Notes: a model not told the origin generated them from the sequence alone. A stretch of 64,000 bases of DNA from Methanobacteriota archaeon (GCA_016841625.1 JAENYU010000018.1:1-64000); one strand, 5' to 3'; shown: positions 1,995 through 50,314, numbered from the stretch's first letter. Made by a program: numbers and translations.

Positions 1995-3947
1995 ATGTCA
2001 GAACCCTTGCTAGTTAGCGGTCTGAGCCTCCTGCTTCTTGGGACGGTCCTCTCCTTATTGTATCGCAGTAGAACTTGCCGGACAGGCTCCCTGGGGCTGA
2101 CCTGTCTATCCTCATGCCTGCTCGTGGTCTTTGCGGGGGAAGTGCTCTATGGGGGCCGGGAAGTGCTGATCGAAAGCTACAGCTTCCTCTCTCCCCTGGA
2201 GTTCAATTTCCTCATAGACCGACTCTCTGCGGGCTTTGTGCTCCTCATATCCCTCGTGTCCCTGGGAGTCTCGCTTTACTCCATAAAATATGTAGAGGAC
2301 GATAAAAGCGAGGGGCGAAAAAGCCTGCACGTAGCCCTGATGAACCTCTTTATCTTCTCAATGTTACTCGTCGTGCTCTCAGCAAACGGCTTTTCCTTCC
2401 TGCTCTTCTGGGAACTCATGTCCATTTCTTCTCTTTTCCTGGTAATCTACGAATACGAAAAGCCAGAGAGCAGAAAGGCGGCCCTCTTTTACTTTATCAT
2501 GACCAGCCTGAGCACGGTCTTTCTCTTCTCGGCCTTTATAGGCCTCTATTCCCGAACAGGTTCCTTTGACTTCCGGGGGTTCGGGCTTCTGGACCCAAAA
2601 GCCGTGTCAGGGATATTCCTTGCCCTCTTCTTCGGCTTTGCAATCAAGGCCGGAGCCGTGCCTTTCCATAAGTGGCTGCCCTATGCCCACCCGGCAAGCC
2701 CCTCGAACATTTCGGCCCTCATGTCGGGGGTCATGCTCAAGGTCGCAATCTATGGGCTGCTGCGTTTCCTGCTCGCGGTCGAACCGGAACTCTGGTGGGG
2801 GGTCCTGGTCCTTGTCTTCGGCAGTGTCTCGGCTCTTCTGGGAGTGGTCTACGCCCTAAAGGAAAACGACATCAAAAGGATGCTCGCCTACAGCAGCATT
2901 GAAAACGTGGGACTTATCCTGATAGGAATCGGGCTTTACCTCATCTTCAGGGTCAGCGGACTTGCCGGGCTTGCCGGGCTCAGCCTTGCGGCCGCAGGCT
3001 TCCACTGCCTGAACCACGCCCTGTTCAAGAGCCTGCTTTTCATGGCCGCAGGCTCTGTCGTACACGAGACCGGCACCCGGAACCTGGAGGAAATGGGAGG
3101 GCTTGTAAAACGCATGCCTCGGACCGCCCTCCTCTTCCTGATCGGGGCGGTCTCGATTGCCGCCCTGCCTCCCACAAACGGGTTTGTGAGCGAGCTTATG
3201 CTCTTCCAGGCCTTTTTCTCGTCCTCAGCCCTCGCGGGAGCAAATGCCCCATTCCTGAAGGTACTCCTCGTCATCAGCCTCTCGGCCCTTGCCCTTACAA
3301 GTGCCCTTGCAGCTACCCTTTTCGTAAAAGTCTTCGGGATTACCTTCCTCGCCCAGCCGCGGACGGAATGCGCAAAACAGGCAGGTGAGGTCCCGAAAAT
3401 CATGCTGCTCGGACAGGCTATCCCTGCGGCCCTCTGTATCCTGACAGGCCTCTTCTCCTCCCGGCTCTTTGCCCTCTTCGGGTTTCCGGTCGAGGTCGAG
3501 GTCCCGGACATGCTTTTTGTCGGCGGGATTTTGACGGGCGCCTACCTGCTGGTCTGGCTTTCCGTCCGGAACTTCGGCCCCTCCTCAGGCCCGAGGGTCA
3601 GTGAAGAGACCTGGGGTTGTGGAATCCTGGCCCAGCACCCGACAATGGAATACAGCTCGGCAGGCTTTTCCGAACCTCTTGTCCTAATCTTCAAAAAGAT
3701 CTACAGGACCCAGCTTTCCAGCAGCAGGACCTTTGCTGACAGCCGGGAATGCGTCTTCGAGCACGGGACCGCCGAAATCCGGCTCATGAAGTTCTTCGAT
3801 GAATACCTCTACCTGCCCGTGGCCCAGGCAGTTGACCGGGTCTCAATGGAGGTGTCGAGGCTGCAGAACGGGAGGCTGGATACCTATGTACTTTACGTCT
3901 TCCTCGCAGTGCTCGTGCTCATGATCTTTACGAGGTGGTTCGCATGA
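1995..3947 (+). CDS. Hydrogenase-4 subunit B-like / NuoL-type antiporter subunit (Ehr complex)
   Basis: A 650-residue, many-helix membrane protein of the Mrp-antiporter/NuoL/HyfB family, which forms an ion-translocating channel. The family marks are intact: a membrane Glu in FWELMS (residue ~136), the Lys-containing FAIKAGAVPFHKWLP (about residue 216-230), and LKENDIKRMLAYSSIENVG (about 288-306). The C-terminal 150 residues carry the usual soluble loop and final helix of HyfB/HycC proteins. It is the first gene of a six-gene operon in the order B, C, E, F, G, I, the same order I recall for the Geobacter Ehr genes (ehrA first). Expected role is ion pumping coupled to the peripheral subunits, whose metal sites are missing here. 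Confidence 0.9.
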   Translation: MSEPLLVSGLSLLLLGTVLSLLYRSRTCRTGSLGLTCLSSCLLVVFAGEVLYGGREVLIESYSFLSPLEFNFLIDRLSAGFVLLISLVSLGVSLYSIKYVEDDKSEGRKSLHVALMNLFIFSMLLVVLSANGFSFLLFWELMSISSLFLVIYEYEKPESRKAALFYFIMTSLSTVFLFSAFIGLYSRTGSFDFRGFGLLDPKAVSGIFLALFFGFAIKAGAVPFHKWLPYAHPASPSNISALMSGVMLKVAIYGLLRFLLAVEPELWWGVLVLVFGSVSALLGVVYALKENDIKRMLAYSSIENVGLILIGIGLYLIFRVSGLAGLAGLSLAAAGFHCLNHALFKSLLFMAAGSVVHETGTRNLEEMGGLVKRMPRTALLFLIGAVSIAALPPTNGFVSELMLFQAFFSSSALAGANAPFLKVLLVISLSALALTSALAATLFVKVFGITFLAQPRTECAKQAGEVPKIMLLGQAIPAALCILTGLFSSRLFALFGFPVEVEVPDMLFVGGILTGAYLLVWLSVRNFGPSSGPRVSEETWGCGILAQHPTMEYSSAGFSEPLVLIFKKIYRTQLSSSRTFADSRECVFEHGTAEIRLMKFFDEYLYLPVAQAVDRVSMEVSRLQNGRLDTYVLYVFLAVLVLMIFTRWFA

Positions 3948-4915
3948 CTCCGGACTTTCCAAACCTGTCTTTCACCCTGTTCTGCCTGCTGAACACCGGG
4001 TTCGTGCTCCTGGTCTCCCCCTTCTACATGAGCCTCATCAAAAAGGTCAAGGCCGCCGCCCAGGGGAGAAAAGGCCCGCGCCTTCTGCAAAACTATTATG
4101 ACTTACGCAAACTCCTGCACAGGGAAGTGGTCTACTCACCCACTTCCTCCGGGGTCATGAGGGTGACCCCCTACCTGAACCTGGCAGTCCTCCTGCTCGC
4201 CTCCCTCTTTGTCCCTGTCATCTTTATCCCGGACGCTCCGGCAGGGATAGGGAACATCATAGTCTTCATTTACCTGCTCGCAATCGAGCGCTTTTTCACG
4301 GCGCTTTGCGGGCTTGACGCTGGCAGCACCTTCGGAGGCATGGGAAGTTCACGGGCAATGAGCCTCTCGGCCGTGATCGAGCCCACTATGGTTATATCCT
4401 TCGCAGCGCTTGCATACGTCCTGAAAACCGTGGACCTGCACGAGATGTTCGCCATTACTTCGGCTTCCGCAATTCCGGTAAGCCCGACCCTGGTTCTGGT
4501 CTCCATCTCCCTCTTCATAATCATCATAGTGGAAACCGGCAGGCTCCCCGTGGACAACCCGGCAACACACCTCGAACTTACCATGATAAATGAGGCCATG
4601 ATCTTGGAACAGTCCGGGAAAAACCTGGCCCTCATAGAACTGACCCATTCGGTTAAACAGACTCTCCTCATGGCGGTCCTGATCAACATCCTTGTCCCGG
4701 TCGGACTTTCTGGCGGGCCTAATATGGGAGACCTTGCTGTTTCTGGCCTTCTGGTATCGGGTCTGGCTTTCCTCGTGAAGGCGGCCCTCCTGGCAGTGGT
4801 AATCGGGCTTTTCGAGTCCTCGCTTTCGAAAATGAGGCTCTTCAGGCTGCCCGTTTTCTACATGATGGCCTTTTTCTTCTCGGCCCTTACCATCCTGATG
4901 GAGGTATTCGCATGA
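3944..4915 (+). CDS. Hydrogenase-4 subunit C-like / NuoH-type subunit (Ehr complex)
   Basis: A membrane protein of the NuoH/HycD/HyfC family, the subunit that joins the peripheral arm to the ion channels. Typical marks are the first cytoplasmic loop (KGPRLLQNYYDLRKLLHRE) and the glutamate-rich fifth-helix region (ETGRLPVDNPATHLELTM, then NEAMILEQSG), both characteristic of hydrogenase-type homologues. I chose ATG 3944, which overlaps the previous stop as ATGA and has GAGGTGG just upstream; a GTG at 3935 in the same frame is less likely. Translational coupling to both neighbours is evident. Confidence 0.9.
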   Translation: MTPDFPNLSFTLFCLLNTGFVLLVSPFYMSLIKKVKAAAQGRKGPRLLQNYYDLRKLLHREVVYSPTSSGVMRVTPYLNLAVLLLASLFVPVIFIPDAPAGIGNIIVFIYLLAIERFFTALCGLDAGSTFGGMGSSRAMSLSAVIEPTMVISFAALAYVLKTVDLHEMFAITSASAIPVSPTLVLVSISLFIIIIVETGRLPVDNPATHLELTMINEAMILEQSGKNLALIELTHSVKQTLLMAVLINILVPVGLSGGPNMGDLAVSGLLVSGLAFLVKAALLAVVIGLFESSLSKMRLFRLPVFYMMAFFFSALTILMEVFA

Positions 4916-5604
4916 TTTCCCCACTCCTTACAGACCCCCTATTTCTCGAAGGGGCGATCAAGATCCTCTTCGTCTTCGTGCTGGTCACGGCGGCACTTGT
5001 CATTTCCGCAAGAAACCTCGCCTCGCTTCTGACCACTTATACTATCCAGTCCCTGCTCCTGGCCCTTATAGCCGGGCTGCTCTACCTGATAGAGGGAAGT
5101 CCGGTGCTGCTATCGATTGCGGCCCTGACGTTTGTCAGCAAGGTTTTGCTTATCCCCTTCTTCATAAACATAGTTGAGGAGAAAGTCAAGATCAGAAGGG
5201 ACATGAAATTCAACTACCTGGAACCTACGTCTTCCCTTATGGTCAGCATCGCTCTGGTCCTGCTGGCCTACGTTTTCCTCTCGGGCTTTTTCGCCCTTGA
5301 CAGGCTGTTCTTCTTCGGGGCCGTAATCGGGCTTTCCCTGACCCTCATGGGCATGCTCGTCATGTTCAGCCGCAGGAAGGTGATTACAAAAGTCCTCGGC
5401 TACCTTACCATGGAAAATGGGGTACTCCTCTTCGGGATCTTTGTCACGGAACTGCCCTTCATCATCGAGGTGCTCATTATCATCGACCTGATCATCCTGG
5501 TCCTCCTGACAACCATCCTGGCGGTCGGGATTGATTCCACGATCGAGGAATACCACCAGCGTCTCCTGAAACTTAAAATCTGGTCAGGGAGGGAATACCT
5601 GTGA
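4912..5604 (+). CDS. Hydrogenase-4 subunit E-like (HyfE/NuoK-related) membrane subunit
   Basis: A 230-residue hydrophobic protein with about six or seven helices, matching HyfE, the hydrogenase-4 subunit related to complex I subunit K. The start overlaps the preceding stop (ATGA), and the stop overlaps the next start (GTGA), so it is made in step with its neighbours. HyfE-type subunits occur in hydrogenase-4, formate hydrogenlyase-2 and Ehr-type complexes but not in the six-subunit Ech of Methanosarcina. This helps to separate the operon from classical Ech. Confidence 0.85.
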   Translation: MISPLLTDPLFLEGAIKILFVFVLVTAALVISARNLASLLTTYTIQSLLLALIAGLLYLIEGSPVLLSIAALTFVSKVLLIPFFINIVEEKVKIRRDMKFNYLEPTSSLMVSIALVLLAYVFLSGFFALDRLFFFGAVIGLSLTLMGMLVMFSRRKVITKVLGYLTMENGVLLFGIFVTELPFIIEVLIIIDLIILVLLTTILAVGIDSTIEEYHQRLLKLKIWSGREYL

Positions 5605-7091
5605 TTCTCTACAATTACCTTGCAGTCGGAGCCCTGGCCTTTGCCCTGATTTTACTCTCGAGGTCCCACAGGGCGATGAACGCCTTTACTGTCCTGCACT
5701 CACTCGCATACCTTGCACTCGGCGCTTTTGCCCTTGCCAGCGGGACCCACGGGTTCGAGGCTGGAAACAGCTATTTTTACCTGGACAGGCTCAGCCTCTA
5801 CGAGGCCCTGGTTGCGGCTCTCCTCTTCTGCTTTGCCTCGGTCTACTCTAACGGCTACGTGGAAAGCCTTATGGAAGCCCGGGAACTGAACCGCAAAAAC
5901 CTGAAAATCTTTTACATGGCGTTCAGCCTCCTGCTTACGACCACGACCCTGGCTTTCTTCTCCGATTCCCTGGCCCTTTTCTGGATCTTTGCCGAACTGA
6001 CAACAGTCTTTTCAGCGGTTCTCGTGGCCATCCTCTCAGCCCGGGAAAACATTGACGCCGCCCTAAAGTACATCTTCATAGCCTCAGGAGCCATGCTCTT
6101 TGCCTTTATCGGGCTGATTTTCCTCTTCAAGCTCTCCGGGGAAGTCCCCGGCTGCGGAGGGGGGACCCTGAACTGGACCGTGCTGATGGCAAACGCGGGC
6201 TCCCTTTCCCCGAAAATGCTGACAGCGAGCTTTGTTTTCATTTTCATCGGTTTTGCGGCCAAGTCAGGCATAGTGCCCTTCCATACCTGGCTCCCGGATG
6301 CCCATTCCAAGGCCCCTTCGGCTGTGAGCGCCATCCTTTCAGGGGTCCTTTTGAACGTCGGGACTTACGGTATTCTCAGAATGTACGCCCTGGTCCGCCA
6401 GACCGAGGCCGGCCCCCTGGTATCCGGTTTCCTGATAGCTTTTGGCCTGCTGACGGTCGCGGTCGCGGTCCTGAACATGCTCAGGCAGAAGAACATGAAG
6501 ATGCTGATTGCCTTTTCAAGCGTGGAACATATGGGAATAATCCTGCTGGGGATCGGAGCAGGCAGTCCGCTTGCCCTTTTCTGGACGCTCTATTATGTCC
6601 TGGCCCATTCCCTGACCAAGGCATCGCTCTTCTTTTCGGCAGGCATCCTGCACCGGCAGTACGAGAGCAACCTGGCCGGGGACATGCGGGACGTACTCCA
6701 GCTCCAGCCCCTCGCAGGCTGGGGTTTTATTGTGGGAAGCGTTGCAATCGTCGGCCTGCCCCCCTTCCCGATCTTTTCGGCTAAATTATCCATCCTCCTG
6801 GAAGCTGCCCGACTCCCGTATGGAGGTATACTGGTCTTTGCGGTCCTGGTCTTCCTGGTGCTGGCTTCGGCGGCTTTTGCGAGGTTTTTGCTCGAAGCCT
6901 TTACCAGAAGGAGTTCGGGATCTGTTTCGAATGGACTTTCTGAAGAGCCGCTTCAGCCCTACCACGTCAGGTTGGGGATGAAAGTCCCGATAGCCGTCAT
7001 GCTCTGCCTGGTCCTTGTACTCGGGGTCTATTGCCCCCCTTTCCTGGAAAAACTCCTGAACGGCATAGTGCAGGAACTCGGATATATCTGA
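5601..7091 (+). CDS. Hydrogenase-4 subunit F-like / NuoN/L-type antiporter subunit
   Basis: A 496-residue antiporter-family membrane protein, the second ion-channel subunit of the complex. It keeps the membrane acidic residue (FWIFAELTTVF), the Lys-containing FAAKSGIVPFHTWLPDAHS and the following RQKNMKMLIAFSSVEHMG. These are the residues that line proton paths in complex I homologues. The GTG start at 5601 overlaps the previous stop. Two such antiporter-like subunits (this one and the 1995 gene) give the complex at least two potential ion channels. Confidence 0.9.
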   Translation: MILYNYLAVGALAFALILLSRSHRAMNAFTVLHSLAYLALGAFALASGTHGFEAGNSYFYLDRLSLYEALVAALLFCFASVYSNGYVESLMEARELNRKNLKIFYMAFSLLLTTTTLAFFSDSLALFWIFAELTTVFSAVLVAILSARENIDAALKYIFIASGAMLFAFIGLIFLFKLSGEVPGCGGGTLNWTVLMANAGSLSPKMLTASFVFIFIGFAAKSGIVPFHTWLPDAHSKAPSAVSAILSGVLLNVGTYGILRMYALVRQTEAGPLVSGFLIAFGLLTVAVAVLNMLRQKNMKMLIAFSSVEHMGIILLGIGAGSPLALFWTLYYVLAHSLTKASLFFSAGILHRQYESNLAGDMRDVLQLQPLAGWGFIVGSVAIVGLPPFPIFSAKLSILLEAARLPYGGILVFAVLVFLVLASAAFARFLLEAFTRRSSGSVSNGLSEEPLQPYHVRLGMKVPIAVMLCLVLVLGVYCPPFLEKLLNGIVQELGYI

Positions 7092-7104
7092 ACGGAGGCC
7101 TGAG

Positions 7105-8862
7105 ATGAAAATAAACACAGAAAAAGAGCAGACTATGGAAGGAAAGCAGAATACGGAAGGAATGAAGGAAAAGAAGGGAATGACAGCCTCAGAATACATT
7201 ACAGGCCTGTTAAGGGATATTTCGAAAGAGCCGCAGATAAAGAACGGAAAAAACGGCGAACTCTACATCCCCCTCCCGGAAAAGGAGTTTCAGGAAACCG
7301 TGCCTGTCCTTGACAGGGAGGAGTTTATCCTGCTAGGCCTCTTTTGCGTCCAGGACTTTGAAGGGGAAAATGAAGAAAAAGGAGAAAATGAAGAAGGAGG
7401 AGAAAAGGGAGAAAATGAAGAAAATGAAGAAAAAGGAGGAAAAGGAGGAAAAGGAGAAAAAGATAAAGCGGAAGCTCCGGCCTTCACCCTCTTTTACGCC
7501 TTCCGGAAAAGAGGCTTTTCCGAAGTATTCGTCTTCCTGCACCCTGTGAAAACGGAAGCGTCTTCGATTGCCAAAACCTTCCCCTCGGCCTGCTGGTACG
7601 AGCGGGAAATCAGGGACGGCTTCGGGCTTGACTTTCCGGACGCTTTTGATAAGCGCAGGCTCTTTTTGCATGAGGCATACCCTGAGGGCTTCCACCCCCT
7701 CCTCAAGTCCTTTGAGAACGGCAAAATCCGTACAATTGAAAACCCACAGGAAAATTATCCGTTCAAACGGCTGGAAGGCGAAGGCGTCTACCAGATCCCG
7801 GTGGGCCCCGTCCACGCAGGGATTATCGAGCCCGGACATTTCAGGTTCAGCGTGATAGGGGAACCCATTTTCAATCTGGAAATCCGGATGTTTTACAAGC
7901 ACCGCGGAATTGAGAAACTGGCAGAGGGAAAGCCCCCGGCAGCCTGCCTCCCGATTGCCGAGGCCATTAGCGGGGACGAGTCGGCCGCAAACTCTGTCGC
8001 CTTCTGCACGGCCGTGGAAAAGCTGGCCGGGCTCAGGGTCCCGGAGCGGGCCGAGTACTTAAGAGCCGTCCTGCTTGAACTTGAGAGAATCCACTCCCAC
8101 CTCGGCGACCTGGCAGGCATGGCCACAGATGTCGGTTTTCCCAGGATCACCTCTCCTTTCCTCATCCTGCGGGAGGAGATCTTCAGGCAGAACGATGTCC
8201 TGACAGGTTCCCGGTTTTTGAAAGGGGCCGTGGATATCGGGGGCATGAAGCAGGACATTCCGGACAAACTCCTTGAAAAGCTGGCCTCCTACCTGGAAAA
8301 CTTTGAGGGCCGCTTCGAGAAAGCCTTCAGGACAGCTATGAGTTCTTCTTCCCTTATCGACAGGTTCTCGACAAGCGGCGTGATCAAAAAGAAGCTGATT
8401 ACCCCCCTGAACCTGACCGGCCCGATTGCCAGAGCCTCCGGGGCCGCCTACGACGTCAGGACGACACACCCCTACGGCATCTACGGGAAAATACCCCCTG
8501 AAAGGAAGGTCCTCTCCACCGGGGATGTCCTTTCCCGCTTCGAGGTCAAAGCCGCCGAGGTCCGGGCCTCAAGAGCCCTTATCCGGAAACTGGTTCTGGA
8601 AATTCCGGCAGGCCCGGTGCTCTGCCCGCCCCCCGTTGCCGGCATCCGGGACGGCTTCGCCCTTTCAATGGTGGAAGCCCCAAGGGGCCAGACCCTACAC
8701 TGGGTCTACGTGAAAAACGGCCTCGTTGACCGCTACAAGGTCCGGACCGCGTCCTTTTGCAACTGGAAGGCCGTTGAACACGCCGTGCTCGACAACATCG
8801 TCCCGGACTTCCCCCTGATTAACAAGAGCCTGAACCTGTCCTATGCGGGCACCGACCTCTGA
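7105..8862 (+). CDS. NuoCD/HyfG-like large subunit lacking the NiFe-binding cysteines (EhrL-type)
   Basis: A 585-residue fusion of a 30-kDa (NuoC-like) domain, about residues 25-210, and a 49-kDa/hydrogenase large-subunit domain. In [NiFe] hydrogenases the first metal motif is CGxC; here the aligned stretch after HRGIEKLAEG reads AISGDES, with Ser289 and Glu292 where the cysteines should be. The C-terminal DPCxxC motif is also absent: the end reads PDFPLINKSLNLSYAG. No NiFe centre can therefore be bound in the usual way. An odd Glu/Lys/Gly-rich low-complexity insert fills about residues 87-121 in the NuoC-like part. These losses define Ehr complexes rather than active hydrogenases. GGAGG precedes the ATG. 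Confidence 0.88.
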   Translation: MKINTEKEQTMEGKQNTEGMKEKKGMTASEYITGLLRDISKEPQIKNGKNGELYIPLPEKEFQETVPVLDREEFILLGLFCVQDFEGENEEKGENEEGGEKGENEENEEKGGKGGKGEKDKAEAPAFTLFYAFRKRGFSEVFVFLHPVKTEASSIAKTFPSACWYEREIRDGFGLDFPDAFDKRRLFLHEAYPEGFHPLLKSFENGKIRTIENPQENYPFKRLEGEGVYQIPVGPVHAGIIEPGHFRFSVIGEPIFNLEIRMFYKHRGIEKLAEGKPPAACLPIAEAISGDESAANSVAFCTAVEKLAGLRVPERAEYLRAVLLELERIHSHLGDLAGMATDVGFPRITSPFLILREEIFRQNDVLTGSRFLKGAVDIGGMKQDIPDKLLEKLASYLENFEGRFEKAFRTAMSSSSLIDRFSTSGVIKKKLITPLNLTGPIARASGAAYDVRTTHPYGIYGKIPPERKVLSTGDVLSRFEVKAAEVRASRALIRKLVLEIPAGPVLCPPPVAGIRDGFALSMVEAPRGQTLHWVYVKNGLVDRYKVRTASFCNWKAVEHAVLDNIVPDFPLINKSLNLSYAGTDL

Positions 8863-8913
8863 ACCGGAGATGCAGAAACTTACAGAACAAGTTTAGATTA
8901 TTGAGGAAATAAT

Positions 8914-9426
8914 ATGGTAAACCCTCTGACCTTCGTATTCCGCCCTAAAGTTACCGAAAAGTTCGACTTCGCCGACTCCGAACTTGAAGAAATCGGCTCC
9001 ACCCTCAAAAAAGAAATCCACCATACCCTGGGCCGCAGCCTGGCCCTCCGCGAACTCGACACCGGCAGCGACAATTCCACCGAAATCGAACTCAACAACC
9101 TCTCAGCCCCCCATTACGACATCTCCCGTTTCGGCATATCCTTTGCAGCCTCCCCCCGCCACGCCGACGCCCTCATAGTAACCGGAGCCGTCACTCACAA
9201 CATGGCCCAGGCCGTCAAAAAAACCTACGAAGCCATGCCCTCTCCCAAATACGTAATAGCCGTCGGCGACGATGCCTGCGACGGCGGGATTTTCAAAGAC
9301 TCGTATGCAGTGCTGGGAGGCGTCGATAAGATTCTGCCCGTCGATATGAAAATACCGGGGAACCCTCCAAGTCCCAGGGAGATTTTGAAAGGGCTGCTGG
9401 CTTTTATGAGGCAAGGTTCGAGGTGA
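8914..9426 (+). CDS. NuoB/HyfI-like small subunit without FeS-ligand cysteines (EhrS-type)
   Basis: A 170-residue protein clearly related to the complex I 20-kDa/hydrogenase small subunit: YDISRFGISFAASPRHADAL, VTGAVTHNM, YEAMPSPKYVIAVG and PPSPREIL are preserved. The four cysteines that hold the proximal [4Fe-4S] cluster are all replaced. Family GSCNGCEIE is GSDNSTEIE here (Asp53, Thr56), family GDCACDGG is GDDACDGG (Asp120), and family PGCPP is PGNPP (Asn150). The fold should remain but electron transfer through this subunit is not possible by the known route. It is the last gene of the operon, and no HyfH/NuoI-like ferredoxin subunit gene is present in the operon. Confidence 0.9.
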   Translation: MVNPLTFVFRPKVTEKFDFADSELEEIGSTLKKEIHHTLGRSLALRELDTGSDNSTEIELNNLSAPHYDISRFGISFAASPRHADALIVTGAVTHNMAQAVKKTYEAMPSPKYVIAVGDDACDGGIFKDSYAVLGGVDKILPVDMKIPGNPPSPREILKGLLAFMRQGSR

Positions 9427-16112: not shown

Positions 16113-17990
16113 ATGACACAGAATGCACAGGATAGAAGCATCGACCCTGCCACCCGGATCATGCTCAAACAGGCTGAAAAGGAAGGCATCGAAACCGCCT
16201 GGGACCGCTATGAGAAACAGCAGCCCCAGTGCAGTTTCGGACAGCTTGGGATCTGCTGCCGGAACTGCAATATGGGTCCCTGCCGGATAGACCCCTTCGG
16301 GGAAGGTGCGGATAAAGGAGTCTGCGGAGCCACGGCAGACATCATCGTCGCAAGAAACCTGCTAAGGACAATCGCAGCAGGCGCAGCCGCCCATTCCGAC
16401 CATGCCAGGGACGCCGTGCTGACCTTCAAGAAAATGAGTGAAGGGAAAGCCGGAAGCTACTGCATAAAGGACGAAGCAAAACTGATCGCCCTAGCGTCCG
16501 AATACGGCATTCCCGTCGAGGACCGGAGCAGGGAAGAAATCGCATCCGAACTTGCCAGAGCCCTGCTTGAGGAATTCGGAAAGCAGGAAGGTCCAATCCG
16601 GTTTACGCAGAGGGCTCCCGAAGCACGGCTTAAACTCTGGGCAGAACTCGGGATCGAACCCCGCGGAATCGACAGGGAAATCGTGGAATGCATGCACAGG
16701 ACCCACATGGGAGTGGACAATGACGCAACCCACATCCTCCTGCACGGGCTCCGGACCAGCCTTTCGGACGGTTGGGGAGGGTCCATGATCGCAACGGACG
16801 TCCAGGACGTGCTCTTCGGGACCCCCGAGCCGAAGAAAACTACCGTGAACCTCGGCGTCCTCACCCGGGACAAGGTTAACGTGATCGTGCACGGGCACGA
16901 ACCCATCCTCTCCGAAATGATCGTGGAAGCTGCCGAAGCCCCCGAACTCCTTGCCCTGGCAAAGGAAAAGGGAGCTGAAGGCATCAATGTAGCCGGAATC
17001 TGCTGCACCGGAAACGAGACCCTTATGCGCCACGGGACCCCCATTGCCGGGACCTTCCTCCAGCAGGAGCTTGCCGTGATTACGGGAGCCGTGGAAGCGA
17101 TGGTCGTGGACGTGCAGTGCGTGATGCCGGCCCTCGGGGCACTTACGGGCTGCTACCACACGAAGTTCATCTCCACCTCCCCGAAAGCCGACTTCCCGGG
17201 GACCGTGAGGATGGAGTTCCACGAAGAAAACGCCTGCGAGACCGCAAAGGAAATCGTACGGACAGCGGTCGAAAATTTCCCGAACCGGGACCCTGGAAAA
17301 GTCAGGATCCCGGAAGAAAAGCAGGAATGCATGGTCGGTTTCAGCGTCGAGGCCATCCTCAAAGCCCTCGGAGGCACCCCCGCCCCCCTCATAGACGCAA
17401 TTACCGGCGGAGCTGTCAAGGGCATCGGGGCTGTTGTGGGCTGCAACAATGTCAAGGTCAAACACAACTACGGGCACGTCAACCTTGTTAAGGAACTGAT
17501 CAAGAACAACGTCCTGGTAGTCACCACTGGCTGCAACGCCATTGCCTGTGCCGAAGCCGGGCTCCTGATGCCCGAAGCTGCTGCCCAGGCAGGAGACGGG
17601 TTAAAAGGCATCTGCGAAGCCCTGGGCATCCCCCCGGTCCTGCACATGGGTTCCTGTGTGGACATCAGTCGCATCCTGGTACTCGCCTCGGCCGTGGCAA
17701 AGACGCTTGGCGTGGACATCAGCGACCTGCCGGCAGCCGGGGCAGCCCCCGAATGGATGAGTGAAAAAGCCGTCAGCATCGGGGCATACGTGGTCTCATC
17801 AGGCGTGTACACCGTGCTCGGGACAGTGCCGCAGGTCCTTGGAAGCGCTGCAGTTGCCGGGCTTCTTACAGAGGGACTGAACGGGGTGGTCGGAGCAAGC
17901 TTTGCGGTGGAACCCGACCCCTTCAAGGCCGCAGACCTGATGCTTGCGCACATCGAAGAAAAAAGAAAAGCTCTGGGCCTTGAGCCCTGA
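16113..17990 (+). CDS. cooS: Anaerobic Ni-Fe carbon monoxide dehydrogenase, monofunctional
   Basis: A 625-residue CODH that interconverts CO + H2O and CO2 with two electrons. All metal ligands known from Carboxydothermus CooS can be found: D-cluster Cys40 and Cys48; B-cluster Cys49, Cys52, Cys57 and Cys71; and C-cluster His262 (VHGHEP), Cys298 (GICCTGNE), Cys336, Cys444 (GCNNVKV), Cys474 (TTGCNA) and Cys515 (HMGSCVD). It is CooS-type rather than the CdhA subunit of acetyl-CoA synthase. It heads an operon with a CooF-like ferredoxin and a formate dehydrogenase. No cooC nickel-insertion gene lies nearby. Confidence 0.97.
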   Translation: MTQNAQDRSIDPATRIMLKQAEKEGIETAWDRYEKQQPQCSFGQLGICCRNCNMGPCRIDPFGEGADKGVCGATADIIVARNLLRTIAAGAAAHSDHARDAVLTFKKMSEGKAGSYCIKDEAKLIALASEYGIPVEDRSREEIASELARALLEEFGKQEGPIRFTQRAPEARLKLWAELGIEPRGIDREIVECMHRTHMGVDNDATHILLHGLRTSLSDGWGGSMIATDVQDVLFGTPEPKKTTVNLGVLTRDKVNVIVHGHEPILSEMIVEAAEAPELLALAKEKGAEGINVAGICCTGNETLMRHGTPIAGTFLQQELAVITGAVEAMVVDVQCVMPALGALTGCYHTKFISTSPKADFPGTVRMEFHEENACETAKEIVRTAVENFPNRDPGKVRIPEEKQECMVGFSVEAILKALGGTPAPLIDAITGGAVKGIGAVVGCNNVKVKHNYGHVNLVKELIKNNVLVVTTGCNAIACAEAGLLMPEAAAQAGDGLKGICEALGIPPVLHMGSCVDISRILVLASAVAKTLGVDISDLPAAGAAPEWMSEKAVSIGAYVVSSGVYTVLGTVPQVLGSAAVAGLLTEGLNGVVGASFAVEPDPFKAADLMLAHIEEKRKALGLEP

Positions 17991-18004
17991 AGAGGTGTAC
18001 CCTG

Positions 18005-18517
18005 ATGAAAGAAGTAATGGTCCGTCCTGAACGCTGCATGGGCTGCCGTTCCTGCGAGATTGCCTGCGCCGTCGAACACTCCGAAAGCAAGGACCTTTTT
18101 GCAGCCGTCATGGAAAAACCGACACCTCAGAAACGGATATATGTTGAATATGTCCCCGAATACAATGCAGCCATTCCCATGACCTGCAGGCACTGTGAGG
18201 AGGCCCCCTGCACAACCGTCTGCCCCACAAAAGCCCTGAAACAGGACGAAATCACCAGGGTGGTCACCCATAACTCGGACCTCTGCATAGGTTGCTGGAC
18301 CTGTTCTATGGTCTGCAACTACGGCGTGATAGGCCGACAGAAAGAAGCAAGAGTAGCCGTGAAATGCAACCTCTGTCCGAATAGGGATATCCCCGCCTGC
18401 GTGGAGGCCTGCCCCACAAATGCCCTTGTTTTTATTGAGGTCAAGAAGCTCGCGGGGGTAAAACGCACAGAAGCTGCCCTGAAACTGGCAAGGGGAATGC
18501 AGGGAAAAGCCCTCTGA
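18005..18517 (+). CDS. cooF: Four-cluster ferredoxin, CooF/HycB type
   Basis: A 170-residue electron carrier with four [4Fe-4S] motifs: CMGCRSCEIAC, CRHCEEAPCTTVC, CIGCWTCSMVC and CNLCPNRDIPACVEAC. This cysteine spacing is that of CooF and HycB, which pass electrons from CODH or formate dehydrogenase to partner enzymes. It starts 14 bases after cooS with GAGGTG upstream. Position between cooS and the formate dehydrogenase gene suggests that it joins the two enzymes, but soluble delivery to other acceptors is also possible. Confidence 0.88.
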   Translation: MKEVMVRPERCMGCRSCEIACAVEHSESKDLFAAVMEKPTPQKRIYVEYVPEYNAAIPMTCRHCEEAPCTTVCPTKALKQDEITRVVTHNSDLCIGCWTCSMVCNYGVIGRQKEARVAVKCNLCPNRDIPACVEACPTNALVFIEVKKLAGVKRTEAALKLARGMQGKAL

Positions 18518-18558
18518 AAAACACAAGCTTTTCCTAAGAGCACCTGGAGCCAGAAAAT

Positions 18559-20598
18559 ATGGAAGAAAAAAACCCTCAACCGACAATCTGTCCCTACTGC
18601 AGCCTGGGCTGCGGTTTTTATCTTAAGCTTGAAGCAGGGAAAGCCGCAGGCATCCGGTATATGCCCGAACACCCGGTAAACGAAGGAAGCCTCTGCCCAA
18701 AAGGCAACACGGTCCTGGAAGTCCTGAACCACCCCGACCGCCTGAAATACCCCCTGAAAAAGACCGAAACCGGCTGGGAAAGGATAGAATGGGAAGAAGC
18801 CCTGGACCTTGCGGCGGCAAAACTGAAAGGGTCGCTGGAAGAATACGGGCCCGATTCCCTCGCTTTTTTGGGTTCTGCAAAGTGCAGTAACGAAGAAAAC
18901 TACATATTCCAGAAAATTGCCAGGCTGCTCGGGACGAATAATGTGGACAACTGCGCAAGGCTCTGCCATGCTTCCACTCTCACGGGCCTTGGAAAAACCC
19001 TGGGTACGGGAGCCATGACAAACCCCATTTCGGACCTTGCCTGCTCGGAGTGCATTTTCGTTATCGGGTCAAATTTCGCAGAAAACCACCCCGCCGTTTC
19101 CCGCCGCGTCCTCGAGGCAAAGGAAAAAGGAGCTTTCGTGATCGTAGCCGATCCCCGTATGACCCCTACAAGCTGGCTTGCGGACCTTTCCCTGCGACTT
19201 GTCCCCGGGACGGACGTTGCCCTCCTGAACGGGATGATGCACGTAATCGTTTCCGAAGGGCTCGTGGACAGGGAATTTGCCCGGGAAAGAACCAAAGGTT
19301 TTGCCGAACTTGAAAATGTACTTCAAAGGTATGACCCTGAAACTGTCTCCCGCATTACCGGCATCCCCTCTGCAGAAATAATAAAAGCTGCCAGGGCTTA
19401 TGCGCGTGCAGGGACAGCTGCAATCGTCTACTCCATGGGGATCACCCAGCACATTTCCGGCACGGACAACGTCACAGCCTGTGCGGACCTTGCCCTTATC
19501 TGCGGGCATATAGGGAAAAAAGGGGCAGGAATCCTTCCCCTGCGAGGCCAGAACAACGTACAGGGAGCCTGCGATATGGGAGCCCTATCCGAATTTTTTC
19601 CGGGGTACGGGAAAGTCGGGGACCCTGAAGCAGCAGGGCGCATGCAAGCCCTCTGGGGAGCAAAAAAGCTTCCCGAAAGCCCCGGGCTGACAGCAACGGA
19701 AATTGTTGGAGCCGCAGGGAAAGGAAAAATCAAAACCCTGTACGTGATGGGAGAAGACCTGGTCAACTCGCACCCTGATTCTTCCCGGGTCAAACAGGCC
19801 CTGGAGAACCTGGACTTCCTGGTGGTGCAGGACATCTTCATGAACGATACGGCCGAATATGCTGACCTGGTCCTTCCTGCCGCTTCCTTTGCTGAAAAAG
19901 AAGGCAGCTTCACCTCTACGGAACGGCGGGTCCAGTGGCTGGAGCCAGCCCTTATGCCACCCGGCGAAGCCAGGGCTGACCTGGAGATCCTTTTCAGGCT
20001 TGCGGAAAAGCTCGGGCTGGACTTCCCATACAGGGACGCCGGAGAGGTCCTGGAGGAAATTTCCGCTGCCGTCCCGGCTTACGGGGGCATCGCAAAAGAG
20101 AGACTGAAAAAGGATTTCGGGCTTATCTGGCCCTGTCCAGATGCCGGCCATACCGGGACCCCTGTCCTGCACACGGACAGCTTCATGACCCCTGACGGGC
20201 TTGCCCGGCTTGTCCCCGTAGAACACAGGAGTCCCGCGGAAACCCCGGGTCCCGATTATCCCTTCCTGCTCACCACCGGACGCACGGTGCTCCACTATAA
20301 TGCAGGTTCCATGAGCAGGCGGTGCAAGTCCCTGCTTAAAAGGGAAGCCGAACTCTATGTGGAAATTCACCCTGCCGATGCCAGGACGATGGAAATCAGG
20401 GAAGGAAACAAACTTGTCCTGGAATCCCGGCGGGGAAGTACAAAAGCCACAGCAAGGCTGACCGAAAGGGTAAGCCCAGGAGTGCTCTTCCTGCCCTTCC
20501 ACTTCCCCGGGACAAACGTCCTGACCGCCGATGCCCTGGACAGGGAAGCCAAAATTCCCGAGTTCAAGGTTTCGGCCTGCAGGATCAGGAGGGGCTGA
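18559..20598 (+). CDS. fdhF: Formate dehydrogenase catalytic subunit, molybdopterin type with cysteine
   Basis: A 679-residue molybdo/tungstopterin oxidoreductase. The N-terminal [4Fe-4S] ligands are Cys11, Cys14, Cys18 and Cys46. The metal ligand is Cys136 followed by His137 (NCARLCHAS), matching Sec140-His141 of E. coli FdhF. Arg329 in LRGQNNVQGACDMG matches Arg333, which contacts formate. Conservation around these residues is much closer to FdhF than to nitrate reductases or other relatives. The C-terminal molybdopterin dinucleotide domain is complete. No FdhB (F420) partner gene is present; instead ferredoxins flank it, so the electron partner is probably CooS through CooF. Confidence 0.93.
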   Translation: MEEKNPQPTICPYCSLGCGFYLKLEAGKAAGIRYMPEHPVNEGSLCPKGNTVLEVLNHPDRLKYPLKKTETGWERIEWEEALDLAAAKLKGSLEEYGPDSLAFLGSAKCSNEENYIFQKIARLLGTNNVDNCARLCHASTLTGLGKTLGTGAMTNPISDLACSECIFVIGSNFAENHPAVSRRVLEAKEKGAFVIVADPRMTPTSWLADLSLRLVPGTDVALLNGMMHVIVSEGLVDREFARERTKGFAELENVLQRYDPETVSRITGIPSAEIIKAARAYARAGTAAIVYSMGITQHISGTDNVTACADLALICGHIGKKGAGILPLRGQNNVQGACDMGALSEFFPGYGKVGDPEAAGRMQALWGAKKLPESPGLTATEIVGAAGKGKIKTLYVMGEDLVNSHPDSSRVKQALENLDFLVVQDIFMNDTAEYADLVLPAASFAEKEGSFTSTERRVQWLEPALMPPGEARADLEILFRLAEKLGLDFPYRDAGEVLEEISAAVPAYGGIAKERLKKDFGLIWPCPDAGHTGTPVLHTDSFMTPDGLARLVPVEHRSPAETPGPDYPFLLTTGRTVLHYNAGSMSRRCKSLLKREAELYVEIHPADARTMEIREGNKLVLESRRGSTKATARLTERVSPGVLFLPFHFPGTNVLTADALDREAKIPEFKVSACRIRRG

Positions 20599-20601
20599 GA
20601 A

Positions 20602-21078
20602 ATGCCGAAAGCCGTTTATGCGGACCTATCCCGATGCATCGCCTGCCACGCCTGCGAACTTGCCTGCGAGCGGGAAAACGAAAACTCGAGGATTTCCTTA
20701 CAGGTCGTAAGAGACCTTGCTGCAGTTCCCGTTTCCTGCCGCCAGTGCGAAACCCCCCTCTGCGCTGTCGTCTGCCCCGGAGAAGCCCTGAACTACGGGG
20801 ACAGCGGGCTTGAGTACGATTCCGAAAAATGCACAGGATGCAGGCTCTGCGTCCTTGCCTGCCCCTTCGGGACTGCGGAATTAAGGGCTGGCGTTATGGA
20901 GCGCTGTGACCTCTGCCAGGGAAAAGAAACCCCTGCCTGTGTGGCAACCTGCCCCGCAGGGGCTCTCTTCTGTGCCGAAGCCGAAAGCATCGGAGGAAAT
21001 ATCAGGGCCAGAAGAGCAGAAAGGATTAAAAAAGCCCTTGCATCCCCGGCATCTGCCGGCAGGAGGGTAAACAGATGA
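20602..21078 (+). CDS. Second four-cluster ferredoxin, HycB/CooF type
   Basis: 158 residues with four [4Fe-4S] motifs: CIACHACELAC, CRQCETPLCAVVC, CTGCRLCVLAC and CDLCQGKETPACVATC. It is a paralogue of the ferredoxin at 18005. It starts three bases after the formate dehydrogenase stop, and its ribosome site (AGGAGGGG) lies in the end of that gene, so it is probably the dedicated electron-transfer subunit of the formate dehydrogenase. The stop overlaps the next start (ATGA). Confidence 0.88.
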   Translation: MPKAVYADLSRCIACHACELACERENENSRISLQVVRDLAAVPVSCRQCETPLCAVVCPGEALNYGDSGLEYDSEKCTGCRLCVLACPFGTAELRAGVMERCDLCQGKETPACVATCPAGALFCAEAESIGGNIRARRAERIKKALASPASAGRRVNR

Positions 21079-21533
21079 AAGAAAGCACAAGGATGCTCGT
21101 ACCTGAGGAAGAAAAGTGCATTGGGTGCAGGGCCTGCACTTCAGCCTGCCCCGAGAAGCTGATTACCTTTTCCGAAGAAGGAAACATGCGAAGTATAAGC
21201 TTCCCTGCGAATTGCGGCACAGGCTGCGAACTCTGTGAACTCTGCGAACTCTGCGCCCTTGCCTGCCCTGAAAATGCGATAAGCTTCATCTTCCCGGAAG
21301 GAGAGAGCGAAAACGTAGAAAAGCAGACCCTTGATTTCGAGCTTGTGTCCTGCCAGAAATGCGGGACTCCCTTTGCAACCATAAGGGAACTTGAAAAGGT
21401 GAGAACAGCCATTTCGGAAAAAGTTCCCCTTCCTCCCAAAGGAGACTTCTGGGTGGAACTCTGCCCCGGCTGTCGTCAGGAAGTATTCAGAGAAAGACAA
21501 GCTGAGGCCCTCATTAGAGAAAGGACGGTTTAA
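21075..21533 (+). CDS. Dicluster ferredoxin with HycF/HyfH-like C-terminal CxxC pairs
   Basis: 152 residues. The N-terminal ferredoxin has CIGCRACTSACP and a second, expanded motif in which the tripeptide CEL is repeated three times (GCELCELCELCALACP). The C-terminus has SCQKCGTPFATIRELEKV and LCPGCR, the two CxxC pairs typical of HycF/HyfH-type subunits that link ferredoxins to group-4 hydrogenases. Its position in the CODH/formate dehydrogenase operon, and the lack of such a subunit in the Ehr operon 12 kb upstream, makes it a candidate connector between them (inference). Confidence 0.8.
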   Translation: MKESTRMLVPEEEKCIGCRACTSACPEKLITFSEEGNMRSISFPANCGTGCELCELCELCALACPENAISFIFPEGESENVEKQTLDFELVSCQKCGTPFATIRELEKVRTAISEKVPLPPKGDFWVELCPGCRQEVFRERQAEALIRERTV

Positions 21534-45637: not shown

Positions 45638-46822
45638 ATGGACTATTCTAGGGCTGATGAACTCGTATCTGCCGTGATTGCAAAGATAGGGCCGGACCGT
45701 GAATCCCTTGATTCCGCCCTGGATTTTACCCTCGATTTTGCTGCCACGCAATCCTTCCCTCCCGAAATGCTGCTGGAACTGGCTGCGGTCTGCGAACAGC
45801 AGAGCATGTACCGGGAAGAATATGTGTTTGCAAAAGCCTGTGCCAGGCTTGGGTCCGGAAAAACCCGGGAAAATGCCTTTTTTATCACCGGTGTGATGGC
45901 CTATATTATGGATTATTTTGAGGAAGCCGAATACTACTACCGGCTGGTCCTGGAAGAAAACCCGGCCCATACCGCTACTCTCTGCAATTACGGATCCCTC
46001 CTGACTGACCTTGGACGCTTTGAAGCCGCAGAAAGCCTGTACAGGAATGCGCTTGCAAGCGATCCCACCCACGCCAGTTCCCGCTGCAACTATGCTTTTC
46101 TCCTTGCCGAAACGGGGAGGCTCGGGGAAGCCGAAGAGCAATACCGGCTTGCCCTTGCCTCCGACCCAGGGCATGTGGGAGCCCACTCCAACTACGCTAA
46201 CCTGCTCTCCGACCTGGGCCGAAACGATGAGGCGGAAAAAGAATACCTTGCCGCCCTTGAGCTTGACCCGGGGCATGTGGGCACCCGCTACAACTACGGG
46301 ATTTTCCTTTCTACCCTCGAAAGGCTCGAGGAAGCCGAAGTCCAGTACAGCGAAGTGCTTTCCCTGAACCCCTGGCATATCAATTCCCTCTGCAACTACG
46401 GGAACCTCCTCTCGCGGCAGGGCAGGGTTTCCGAAGCTGAAGCCCAGTACCGGAAAGCTCTTAAACTGGTCCCCGAAGATGCCGACCTCCACTGCAACTA
46501 TGCCCTGCTCCTGCTGGACTGCGGGCGCAGTACCGAGGCTGAAAAGGAGTTGAAAAAATCCCTGTTCCTGGATTCCACGAGGGTAAATCCCCACTACAAT
46601 TACGGGCGCCTGCTTGCAAAGAAGGGGCGTGTGGAAGAAGCCGAAGCCCAGTATATGGAAGCTCTTGCCCTGGACCCCGGACATACCGGGACCCATTACA
46701 GCTATGGCTCCCTTCTGAAAAAACTGGGGCGAATAGAAGAAGCAAAACAGCACTATGTCCTGGGCCTGAAAGATAACTATGCTCTTGAAAACGAGGGCAA
46801 CCAGTGGATTTTCTTTGATTGA
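45638..46822 (+). CDS. TPR repeat protein, paralogue 1 of 3
   Basis: 394 residues. The N-terminal ~90 residues form a helical domain shared with the genes at 47476 and 50315 (REEYVFAKACARLGSGKTRE). It is followed by about eight TPR units of 34 residues with the pattern CNYGxLLxxxGRxxEAExxYRxALxLDPxH, for example NYGNLLSRQGRVSEAEAQY. Such arrays bind other proteins; partners are unknown. No signal peptide or enzyme domain is present. It has its own promoter and ribosome site. Confidence 0.88.
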   Translation: MDYSRADELVSAVIAKIGPDRESLDSALDFTLDFAATQSFPPEMLLELAAVCEQQSMYREEYVFAKACARLGSGKTRENAFFITGVMAYIMDYFEEAEYYYRLVLEENPAHTATLCNYGSLLTDLGRFEAAESLYRNALASDPTHASSRCNYAFLLAETGRLGEAEEQYRLALASDPGHVGAHSNYANLLSDLGRNDEAEKEYLAALELDPGHVGTRYNYGIFLSTLERLEEAEVQYSEVLSLNPWHINSLCNYGNLLSRQGRVSEAEAQYRKALKLVPEDADLHCNYALLLLDCGRSTEAEKELKKSLFLDSTRVNPHYNYGRLLAKKGRVEEAEAQYMEALALDPGHTGTHYSYGSLLKKLGRIEEAKQHYVLGLKDNYALENEGNQWIFFD

Positions 46823-47475
46823 ATTCGGGATGGCTTATTTAATCTTTTATTTTTACTTTCCGTTTTTACCTTCTGTTTTTACTTTCTGTTTTTACCTTCT
46901 GTTTTTACTTTCTGTTTTTACTTTCTGTTTTTACCTTCCGTTTTTACCTTCTGTTTTTACCTTCTGTTTTTACCCTTTATACCGTATATACAATTCATAA
47001 CTTTTATTCATCGATGGAAAGTGCCTGATTTTATGGTTTTGATTTCTTTATTTCAATCGGAACGCCTTCTTTAAGAATACTCATTTGACTCTCTGGTATT
47101 TTCTCCATTGATATTTTTCTCCGACAATTTCAAGGGCGGTAGCTTGATTATCTCAATTCCGTTAACTGTTTTATATTGAGGAACAAAGGGAAAGGAAGTT
47201 ATATTATTGTTATAATCTTATATCTGACACTATAAAATCTATTCAATAACTTACTAATATATTCAAGTCTATTGAAAATATATTCTGAATGTGTGTCTTA
47301 GTACCCGCTACGAAATAACCTGTGCAACTTATTATTTATTGGAATTTCAATTGGCAACCTTGATCTTGAAAATCAAGATGTCCAATCGGAAATATGCAGA
47401 AGTTGTTCTGTGACGGGGCCTTACAACCCTACCAACCCACAAACTTTAAAAAATTCCCATTTTTGAGGTCGGATA
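46823..47475. repeat. Spacer with a 13-bp tandem repeat (46856-46975, about 9-10 units)
   Basis: Unit TTCTGTTTTTACC, alternating with TTCTGTTTTTACT. The rest (to 47475) is AT-rich. On the minus strand around 47035-47180 short coding-looking stretches can be read (IEIIKLPPLKLSEKN and SILKEGVPIEIKKSKP in different frames), perhaps a gene fragment too short to name. Confidence 0.7.
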
Positions 47476-48663
47476 ATGGACTTCAACGCTATTGACGAAA
47501 TTGTATATTCTGTTGTTGAAAAAATCGGATCGGACCATAGAAACCTTTGCTTTGCAGTTAATTTCACCCTGGAATTTGTTGAAAAAAAATCCTTTTCCCC
47601 CAAACTTTTGCTTGACCTTGCAGATGCCTGCAAAAAGCAAAAGATGCCCCTTGAAGAATATGTGTTCGCAAAAGCCTGCTCGAGACTGGCTTCCGGAAAG
47701 CTCCGGGAAGATGCCTCTTTTGCTGTAGGTAATGCGGCTCACTTCCTGGGTTTACCCTGCGAAGCCGAAGCGAACTATATGGAAACTCTCACAAAAAACC
47801 CTAAAAATGCGGACGCCAGGTCAGCATATGCGGACCTGCTCATGGAACTCCGGCGGATTGACGAAGCTGAAAACGAGTATCATGCTGCACTTGCATTCGA
47901 TTCCGGGCATGTTAAGGCAAATTCAGGCTATGCATGCCTTTTAGCAGAACTCGGACGGGTAAGTGAAGCCGAAGAGCGCTATTCACGGGCACTTGCCTCA
48001 TGTCCGGACTATGTCCCGGCAAGAGGCGGGTATGCGAACCTGCTCTTTGAGATGGGGCGTATCCGGGAAGCTGAAGAGCAATACAGGACTGCGCTTAAAC
48101 TTGATTCTGAAAACCCTGTGCTGCACCACAACTACGGGATGTTGCTCTCTTTCCTGAGTCGTGCTTCCGAAGCGGAGGCCGAGTACAGGAAGGCTATTGA
48201 CCTGAACCCGAGTCACAGGAGGAGCCGGTTTAATTACGGGAACCTCCTTGCCCGGGAAGGCAGGGTGTCCGAAGCCGAAGAACAGTACATCGAAGCCCTT
48301 GCTCTTGACGAAAACGATGCAAAGACCCACTGCAACTACGCAAACCTCCTTTCCCGTTTCGGGAGAAGGTACGAAGCTGAAATGGAATACAAAAAGACTC
48401 TTGACCTTGACCCCGAAAGCGCCGAAGGGCACTACAGCTATGGGAACCTCCTTACCGAGATCGGACGTCTTGTCGAGGCCGAAGAAGAGTACATTAAGGC
48501 CCTTCGCCTGAACCCTTATTACCCCCCCTTCCATTACAGCTACGGCCTGCTCCTTAGAAAAATGGATAAATTCGATGAAGCGGAAAAACAGTATAATAAA
48601 GCTATGCAACTTGACCCGGATATCATGGACAAAATTCTGGAACCCTGGATAATCCTCGACTGA
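47476..48663 (+). CDS. TPR repeat protein, paralogue 2 of 3
   Basis: 395 residues with the shared N-terminal domain (LEEYVFAKACSRLASGKLRE) and about eight TPR units, such as NYGNLLAREGRVSEAEEQYI and YGNLLTEIGRLVEAEEEYIK. It aligns nearly end to end with the 45638 gene, although the N-terminal residues have diverged. The ending (ILEPWIILD versus NEGNQWIFFD) is also similar. A multi-unit 14-bp array follows the stop. Confidence 0.88.
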   Translation: MDFNAIDEIVYSVVEKIGSDHRNLCFAVNFTLEFVEKKSFSPKLLLDLADACKKQKMPLEEYVFAKACSRLASGKLREDASFAVGNAAHFLGLPCEAEANYMETLTKNPKNADARSAYADLLMELRRIDEAENEYHAALAFDSGHVKANSGYACLLAELGRVSEAEERYSRALASCPDYVPARGGYANLLFEMGRIREAEEQYRTALKLDSENPVLHHNYGMLLSFLSRASEAEAEYRKAIDLNPSHRRSRFNYGNLLAREGRVSEAEEQYIEALALDENDAKTHCNYANLLSRFGRRYEAEMEYKKTLDLDPESAEGHYSYGNLLTEIGRLVEAEEEYIKALRLNPYYPPFHYSYGLLLRKMDKFDEAEKQYNKAMQLDPDIMDKILEPWIILD

Positions 48664-48666
48664 AAT

Positions 48667-48862
48667 GGTTTGACTTGCAGGGTTTGACTTGCAGGGTTTG
48701 ACCGAATAGGTTTGACTTGCAGGGTTTGACCGAATAGGTTTGACTTGCAGGGTTTGACCGAATAGGTTTGACAGAACAGGTTCGACTTGCAGGGTTTGAC
48801 CGAATAGGTTTGACTTGCAGGGTTTGACAGAACAGGTTTGACCGAATAGGTTCGACTGAAAG
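48667..48862. repeat. 14-bp tandem repeat, about 13 units of two alternating types
   Basis: GGTTTGACTTGCAG and GGTTTGACCGAATA alternate, with GGTTTGACAGAACA as a third type. The array begins within three bases of the TPR gene stop. Confidence 0.9.
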
Positions 48863-48963
48863 GTTCTACCCTTATATGCGCTTTCAGACGCTTCACAGGT
48901 TCTTTCAGATATCTCACAGGTTCTTATTTCAGGGCAGAAAAATCAAAAATTAAATAAAAGGTT

Positions 48964-49935: not shown

Positions 49936-50314
49936 TGGATCACCCCTGAAGACAAGTTGTCTGAAATCCTCTTTTTTGTACGGTGAATTAAATGTTGAAG
50001 TACGACGAATTAAGTGTTGAAGTGCGGTGAATTAAGTGTTGAAGCATACATTAATTTAATTTTTGCATCAATAAACGTTTGGTTATGGAGTGAGTCATTG
50101 ATCAAATATGAAAAAACGAGCGCAATATCCATTTTTAGAAAAAAATGTATAGAGTTCTTGTGCTTACTGTTTTCAGTAACTTACCCCACGACTGAATTTT
50201 ATTCGGTGTAATTTAATATGGCTAATTATTTATAGAGAGTCGAATAAATTCACTTAAGAGGGAAATTTCCGGAGGTTTTTCCCGGGAGTTTTATCCCCTG
50301 GAGGTTTTCTCGGC
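49936..50314. other. Spacer upstream of the third TPR gene
   Basis: Three copies of a 20-bp unit (GAATTAAGTGTTGAAGTNCG) lie at 49985-50045. A promoter-like TAATTTAATATGGC...AATTATTTATAG precedes the TPR gene (50210-50240). Confidence 0.5.

Follow-up and report, generated by a model that had tools for sequence, protein, structure and literature searches.

A Methanosarcinaceae Ehr operon without NiFe and proximal FeS ligands: a complex that probably moves ions without electron transport

A compact, hyfBCEFGI-like operon of six genes occupies positions 1995-9426 on the + strand of the window (the whole stretch of 64,000 nucleotides analyzed here, from a Methanosarcinaceae genome). Gene calls and family matches confirmed the six genes at the place given by a sequence-only reading of the same DNA. 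The reading frames of HyfB, HyfC, HyfE, and HyfF overlap in turn, and are followed by the large subunit gene and, after a gap of ~50 bases, by the small subunit gene:

1995-3947, +: HyfB/NuoL-type antiporter-like subunit (EhrA), 650 aa; NF006418 "hydrogenase membrane subunit" (870 bits, cut-off 794) and Proton_antipo_M
3935-4915, +: HyfC/NuoH-type subunit, 326 aa; Pfam NADHdh; nearest solved structure HycD
4912-5604, +: HyfE-type membrane subunit, 230 aa; NF008556
5601-7091, +: HyfF/NuoM-type antiporter-like subunit, 496 aa; NF006427 (648 bits, cut-off 511)
7105-8862, +: large subunit HyfG/EhrL, a NuoC+NuoD fusion, 585 aa; Complex1_30kDa and Complex1_49kDa; NiFe ligands absent
8914-9426, +: small subunit HyfI/EhrS, NuoB fold, 170 aa; Oxidored_q6; proximal cluster ligands absent

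Family searches assigned the membrane subunits to the hydrogenase-4/formate-hydrogenlyase type and the arm to Complex1_30kDa plus Complex1_49kDa and Oxidored_q6. The solved structures nearest to HyfB are HycC and MbhH, and HycE comes nearest to the large subunit, by sequence and by fold alike (TM 0.91 of target; single-chain model with pLDDT 86). For the large, HyfB-type, and HyfC-type subunits, no solved structure is closer than E. coli formate hydrogenlyase (HycC-HycG, 7z0s), which differs from the operon of the window in bearing NiFe, proximal FeS, and HycF/HycB. The NuoC-like part of the large subunit contains, at residues ~85-125, a Glu/Lys/Gly-rich low-complexity insert that relatives do not have and that was modeled with low confidence.

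The sites at which metal ligands would be expected in the large and small subunits are as follows:

7969-7980, +: first NiFe site, S289-G-D-E292 in place of CxxC (HycE alignment)
8803-8829, +: PDFPLINKS, residues 567-575, an Ehr-conserved stretch just upstream of the second NiFe site
8839-8850, +: second NiFe site, S579-Y-A-G582 in place of CxxC, within NLSYAGTDL (aligned with HycE DPCYSCTD)
9070-9081, +: D53-N-S-T56 in place of cluster cysteines 1 and 2 (CNGC)
9271-9273, +: D120 in place of cluster cysteine 3
9361-9363, +: N150 in place of cluster cysteine 4

In the alignment with HycE, the NiFe-binding CxxC motifs of group 4 [NiFe] hydrogenases (Hyf/Hyc/Ech/Mbh) were absent from the large subunit. 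Ser289 and Glu292, which the sequence-only reading had put at the place of the NiFe cysteines, align exactly with the first CxxC of HycE. Its choice of PDFPLINKS as the second motif was mistaken: DPCYSCTD of HycE aligns with NLSYAGTD, so that the ligands replaced are S579 and G582. The SGD motif is common to nearly all Ehr (energy-converting hydrogenase-related) loci, the second-site counterpart in Ehr is NLSY[AS]G, and loss of both NiFe motifs from the large subunit is the trait by which Ehr is recognized. The operon also holds the group-4-hydrogenase-like membrane set together with a large and a small subunit, and the large subunit falls among Ehr in a tree that is weakly rooted, on one NiFe-bearing sequence only (L094). 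Motifs, gene content, and tree all identify the six-gene complex as an Ehr complex, a member of the complex I superfamily. This upholds the match to Ehr proposed earlier, except that FeS loss is not a general Ehr trait and marks particular sub-clades.

FeS-bearing relatives have CN[GA]C, GSC, and PGC where the small subunit of the window has DNST, GDD, and PGN, and Asp53, Thr56, Asp120, and Asn150 stand exactly at the four [4Fe-4S] cysteine places, as had been proposed. The sole cysteine, C122, is at no ligand position. Neither the N2 cluster ligands of complex I NuoB nor the proximal [4Fe-4S] ligands, which are usual though not definitional for Ehr, are present in this subunit. AF2 modeled it confidently as a single chain (pLDDT 93), and the model resembles chains of the NuoB type (MbhJ, TM 0.88 of target): the fold is intact, and the site rewritten. 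Degenerate 3′ ends of the small subunit gene (66-94% protein identity) lie elsewhere in the same genome, on contigs C51 (98484-98636) and C59 (54477-54754), and further broken 3′ copies were found on G001:C40 and at L047-L049, where they adjoin sequence common to L047 and L048; these broken copies are remnants of former copies.

Gene calls also confirmed that a ferredoxin subunit gene is missing from the operon. A HyfH-like 2[4Fe-4S] gene sits between the large and small subunit genes in the FeS-bearing clade B (Candidatus Methanoperedens and Methanosarcinaceae MAGs), which has the subunits and the SGD and NLSY[AS]G-type motifs of the window but keeps CN[GA]C, GSC, and PGC, whereas clade A, that of the window, has no such gene. 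Because HyfH is missing from many bacterial Ehr too, its absence alone is unremarkable. The operon contains no genes for the NADH/F420 input module of complex I, and, judged from sequence, no known redox cofactor site is left in any of the six subunits.

The operon in methanogens and its NiFe loss were already known. The six genes were described in Methanospirillum hungatei (Mhun_1817-1822, "Pmh"), Methanosarcina acetivorans, and M. mazei with the NiFe cysteines missing (PMC2686161; Anderson et al. 2009), and were named ehrABCDLS in a paper that assumed ferredoxin reduction as likely and also names Methanosarcina homologs (PMC4704411). The M. hungatei system resembles that of the window in its six genes and lost NiFe ligands, but the passages of these accounts drawn on here have no word on the four FeS ligands or the loss of HyfH found in the window. 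Elsewhere Ehr is described, in the passages covered, by NiFe loss only (PMC6349859, PMC7304191, PMC10284858). Loss of the small-subunit FeS site finds no mention in the Ehr literature passages covered, a scope that does not extend to Marreiros et al. 2013, and within that scope it is apparently new.

The FeS-less form was found at 43 archaeal loci (Methanosarcina, Methanoregula, and other families), plus two in Micrarchaeota. A close small subunit occurs in 27 of 112 family genomes; 23 are FeS-less (4/4 of the window's genus and 19 of a second genus, Methanosarcina) and four belong to the FeS-bearing clade B. HyfB of the window type is present in 19 of the 31 Methanosarcina genomes, with 12 lacking it. 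A phylum-wide search recovered the FeS-less form in several more families, with 15 loci that read DN[AS][TA] or DGSP, followed by an acidic residue (position 120) and either N or D (position 150; one fourth position was unread by the pattern). A scan of genome contigs found it in Methanosarcina, Methanoregula, an Altiarchaeales MAG, a Dehalococcoidales-binned contig, and the two Micrarchaeota; L074, L076, and the Micrarchaeota sequences are from MAGs, for which mis-binning is possible. The Micrarchaeota Ehr (L100, L121) read PNDV/SNDV, GDG, and PGN, so that the four ligands have become P/S, V, G, and N, vs. D, T, D, and N in methanogens. A set from Patescibacteria ([TD]NAC, GDDA, PGD) has lost three of the four ligands. 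Wherever else an Ehr locus includes a small subunit, the four cysteines are present, except in one Rokubacteria sequence with three.

In the large-subunit tree, clade A was fully supported, and in the careful tree it formed one clade with the Micrarchaeota (99/95); the quick tree placed the two beside FeS-bearing Ehr of Nitrososphaerota. The Patescibacteria clade was separate from clade A. None of 200 bootstrap trees had a single FeS loss for archaea and CPR, which the AU test disfavored (P = 0.033), and we conclude that the cluster was probably lost at least twice. Patescibacteria (CPR) Ehr, for which NiFe loss is recorded in the part of PMC7304191 used here, shares with the window Asp for Cys at ligands 3 and 4, and differs in keeping one cysteine and in its separate, probably independent, origin. 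In both losses, ligand 3 gave way to an acidic residue and ligand 4 to N or D, and such convergence in two independent losses argues for functional replacement. The large subunit of the window (7105-8862) clusters with the second genus, Methanosarcina, and not with its own congeners, and the flanking genes differ too; this grouping suggests transfer or sorting of two Ehr types between lineages.

D53, T56, D120, and N150 were unchanged in 27 clade A sequences, in which the codons at these positions vary synonymously only; this rules out sequencing error or decay as the cause of the missing cysteines. Pairwise dN/dS in clade A was ~0.05-0.1 where dS was unsaturated. Among sites near-invariant in FeS-bearing Ehr, clade A keeps 29 of 34 in the small subunit, where the ligand cysteines make up four of the five changes, and 64 of 67 in the large subunit. 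Because the changes center on the ligand cysteines, with nearly all other near-invariant sites kept and the substitutes invariant, the FeS loss is best seen as a targeted replacement and not as decay. The ion path is likewise conserved across clades A and B, in agreement with the earlier claim that the membrane subunits keep their acidic and lysine channel residues: E140, K218, K294, H341, and K345 of HyfB are invariant in both clades, the E-channel-region acids D207, E214, E220, and E225 of HyfC and residues E132, K221, K300, H336, and K340 of HyfF are conserved in both, and E168, E186, and D192 of HyfE are kept.

The membrane ion path of complex I superfamily members is driven by redox chemistry in the arm. 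Here the large subunit is without NiFe, the small subunit without the proximal [4Fe-4S] cluster, and the complex as a whole without the ferredoxin subunit HyfH. These three losses leave no recognizable electron path, and the complex probably moves ions without electron transport. The sequence-only reading had proposed a cofactor-free ion-pump core. The cofactor-free part stands, in that no known cofactor site is left, but primary pumping does not, since no electron path powers one, and gradient-driven transport fits better. We infer, with a probability of about 0.6, that this redox-inert Ehr transports cations, driven by a gradient and with its own arm as the gate. The antiporter-like and NuoH-like subunits would move H+ and/or Na+, swapping gradients in the fashion of Mrp, and the peripheral arm would have been kept for gating the membrane part, not for carrying electrons. 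Binding of a ligand or proton in the old catalytic cavity and the polar site of D53, D120, and N150 would switch the conserved E-channel path. Two points weigh against this: antiport alone would not explain why the large-subunit cavity is so strictly conserved, and a motif-less cofactor (flavin, F420, or methanophenazine) may be bound.

The antiporter-like subunits of Mrp Na+/H+ antiporters share the Glu/Lys/His ion path with the window, and we know of no Mrp with large or small (NuoD/NuoB-like) subunits. The window operon keeps NuoD/NuoB-like subunits and has no MrpE/F/G-like gene, and its genes do not make up an MrpA-G set free of NuoB/NuoD-like subunits. Among the 31 Methanosarcina genomes, 9/9 with Mrp and 8/8 with a clear Rnf match belong to the 19 that bear the operon (hypergeometric P ~0.005 for Mrp, uncorrected for kinship); given the kinship among genomes, this co-occurrence fits a role in the Na+/H+ economy only weakly. 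Eleven of the 19 operon-bearing Methanosarcina genomes also hold an Ech-type small subunit, and replacement of Ech by the operon was rejected. An Altiarchaeales contig (L074, 15832-20858) carries a second hyfBCEF set, followed by an opposite-strand superoxide-dismutase-like gene and with no large or small subunit genes; this stand-alone set suggests that the membrane part may work alone.

The gating idea might reach beyond the FeS-less forms. Since FeS-less lineages keep nearly all other conserved sites, it is conceivable, although we hold this tentatively, that Ehr complexes generally are not oxidoreductases and that a ligand or proton acting in their conserved cavity opens and closes the membrane ion path.

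No gene adjoining the operon recurs throughout clade A, and no redox partner was found among the neighbors; a FilR1-type regulator and a histidine kinase stand beside seven to eight other loci and are missing at the window locus. Genes for CO dehydrogenase (cooS), an fdhA-like molybdopterin enzyme, and two ferredoxins, one HydN/HycB-like and one HycF-like, are clustered at 16113-21533 (+) of the window, 7-12 kb downstream of the operon (11.6 kb for the HycF-like gene). They are possibly a module that feeds in electrons from CO/formate, with no hydrogenase linked to it. Orthologs of fdhA (at least 68% identity) are confined to 8 of the 112 family genomes, are missing from most operon-bearing genomes, lie far from the operon in both genomes compared (G003, G111), and are present in one operon-less genome (G004). 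The cluster was rejected as the operon's electron donor, being rare, unlinked in relatives, and present without the operon.

These data bear on the view that the complex is still an oxidoreductase, in which a soluble partner or an unlinked ferredoxin or flavoprotein would pass electrons directly to a carrier, quinone-like or otherwise, in the old cavity, bypassing the proximal cluster. The cavity residues of the large subunit are conserved as strongly as in FeS-bearing Ehr, the cooS-fdhA cluster lies nearby, and PMC4704411, in the part drawn on here, has ehr likely reducing ferredoxin. With the proximal ligands and HyfH both missing, the cooS-fdhA set unlinked in relatives, and no conserved partner beside the operon, we consider this view unlikely.

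D53, D120, N150, and cavity residues might instead hold a non-redox metal or a substrate, with ion flow coupled to hydration or transport, as in the cyanobacterial NDH-1MS and DAB inorganic-carbon pumps. The carboxylate and carboxamide substitutes have indeed arisen twice and show either no variation or only conservative variation (D/E at 120, N/D at 150), but no histidine occurs at the replaced positions, P/S, V, G, and N of Micrarchaeota could hardly bind a metal, and no carbonic-anhydrase-like gene was seen conserved near the operon, all of which makes this improbable. That the complex is a relic, or an assembly or regulatory scaffold on its way out, would account for the 12 of 31 Methanosarcina genomes without the operon and for the degenerate small-subunit fragments in the same genome, but is very hard to reconcile with strong purifying selection and a six-gene operon intact across many species and families. 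Retention of an Fe-S cluster by non-cysteine ligands in the small subunit is scarcely credible: single Asp ligands to Fe-S clusters are known in other proteins, but clade A has no cysteine at any of the four positions, and a [4Fe-4S] site held by four ligands of this kind is not known to us.

If the redox-inert, arm-gated transporter is real, a cofactor-free member of the superfamily under strong selection separates the coupling machinery from redox chemistry. The published assumption of ferredoxin reduction, as worded in the passages used, would be contradicted, and metabolic models that use the operon in this way would need correction. The operon is recorded in genetically tractable methanogens (M. 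acetivorans and M. mazei, in the passages cited above), which makes Ehr function directly testable. Further along the window, at 45638-51364 (+), three related TPR-repeat-like proteins are encoded near one another.
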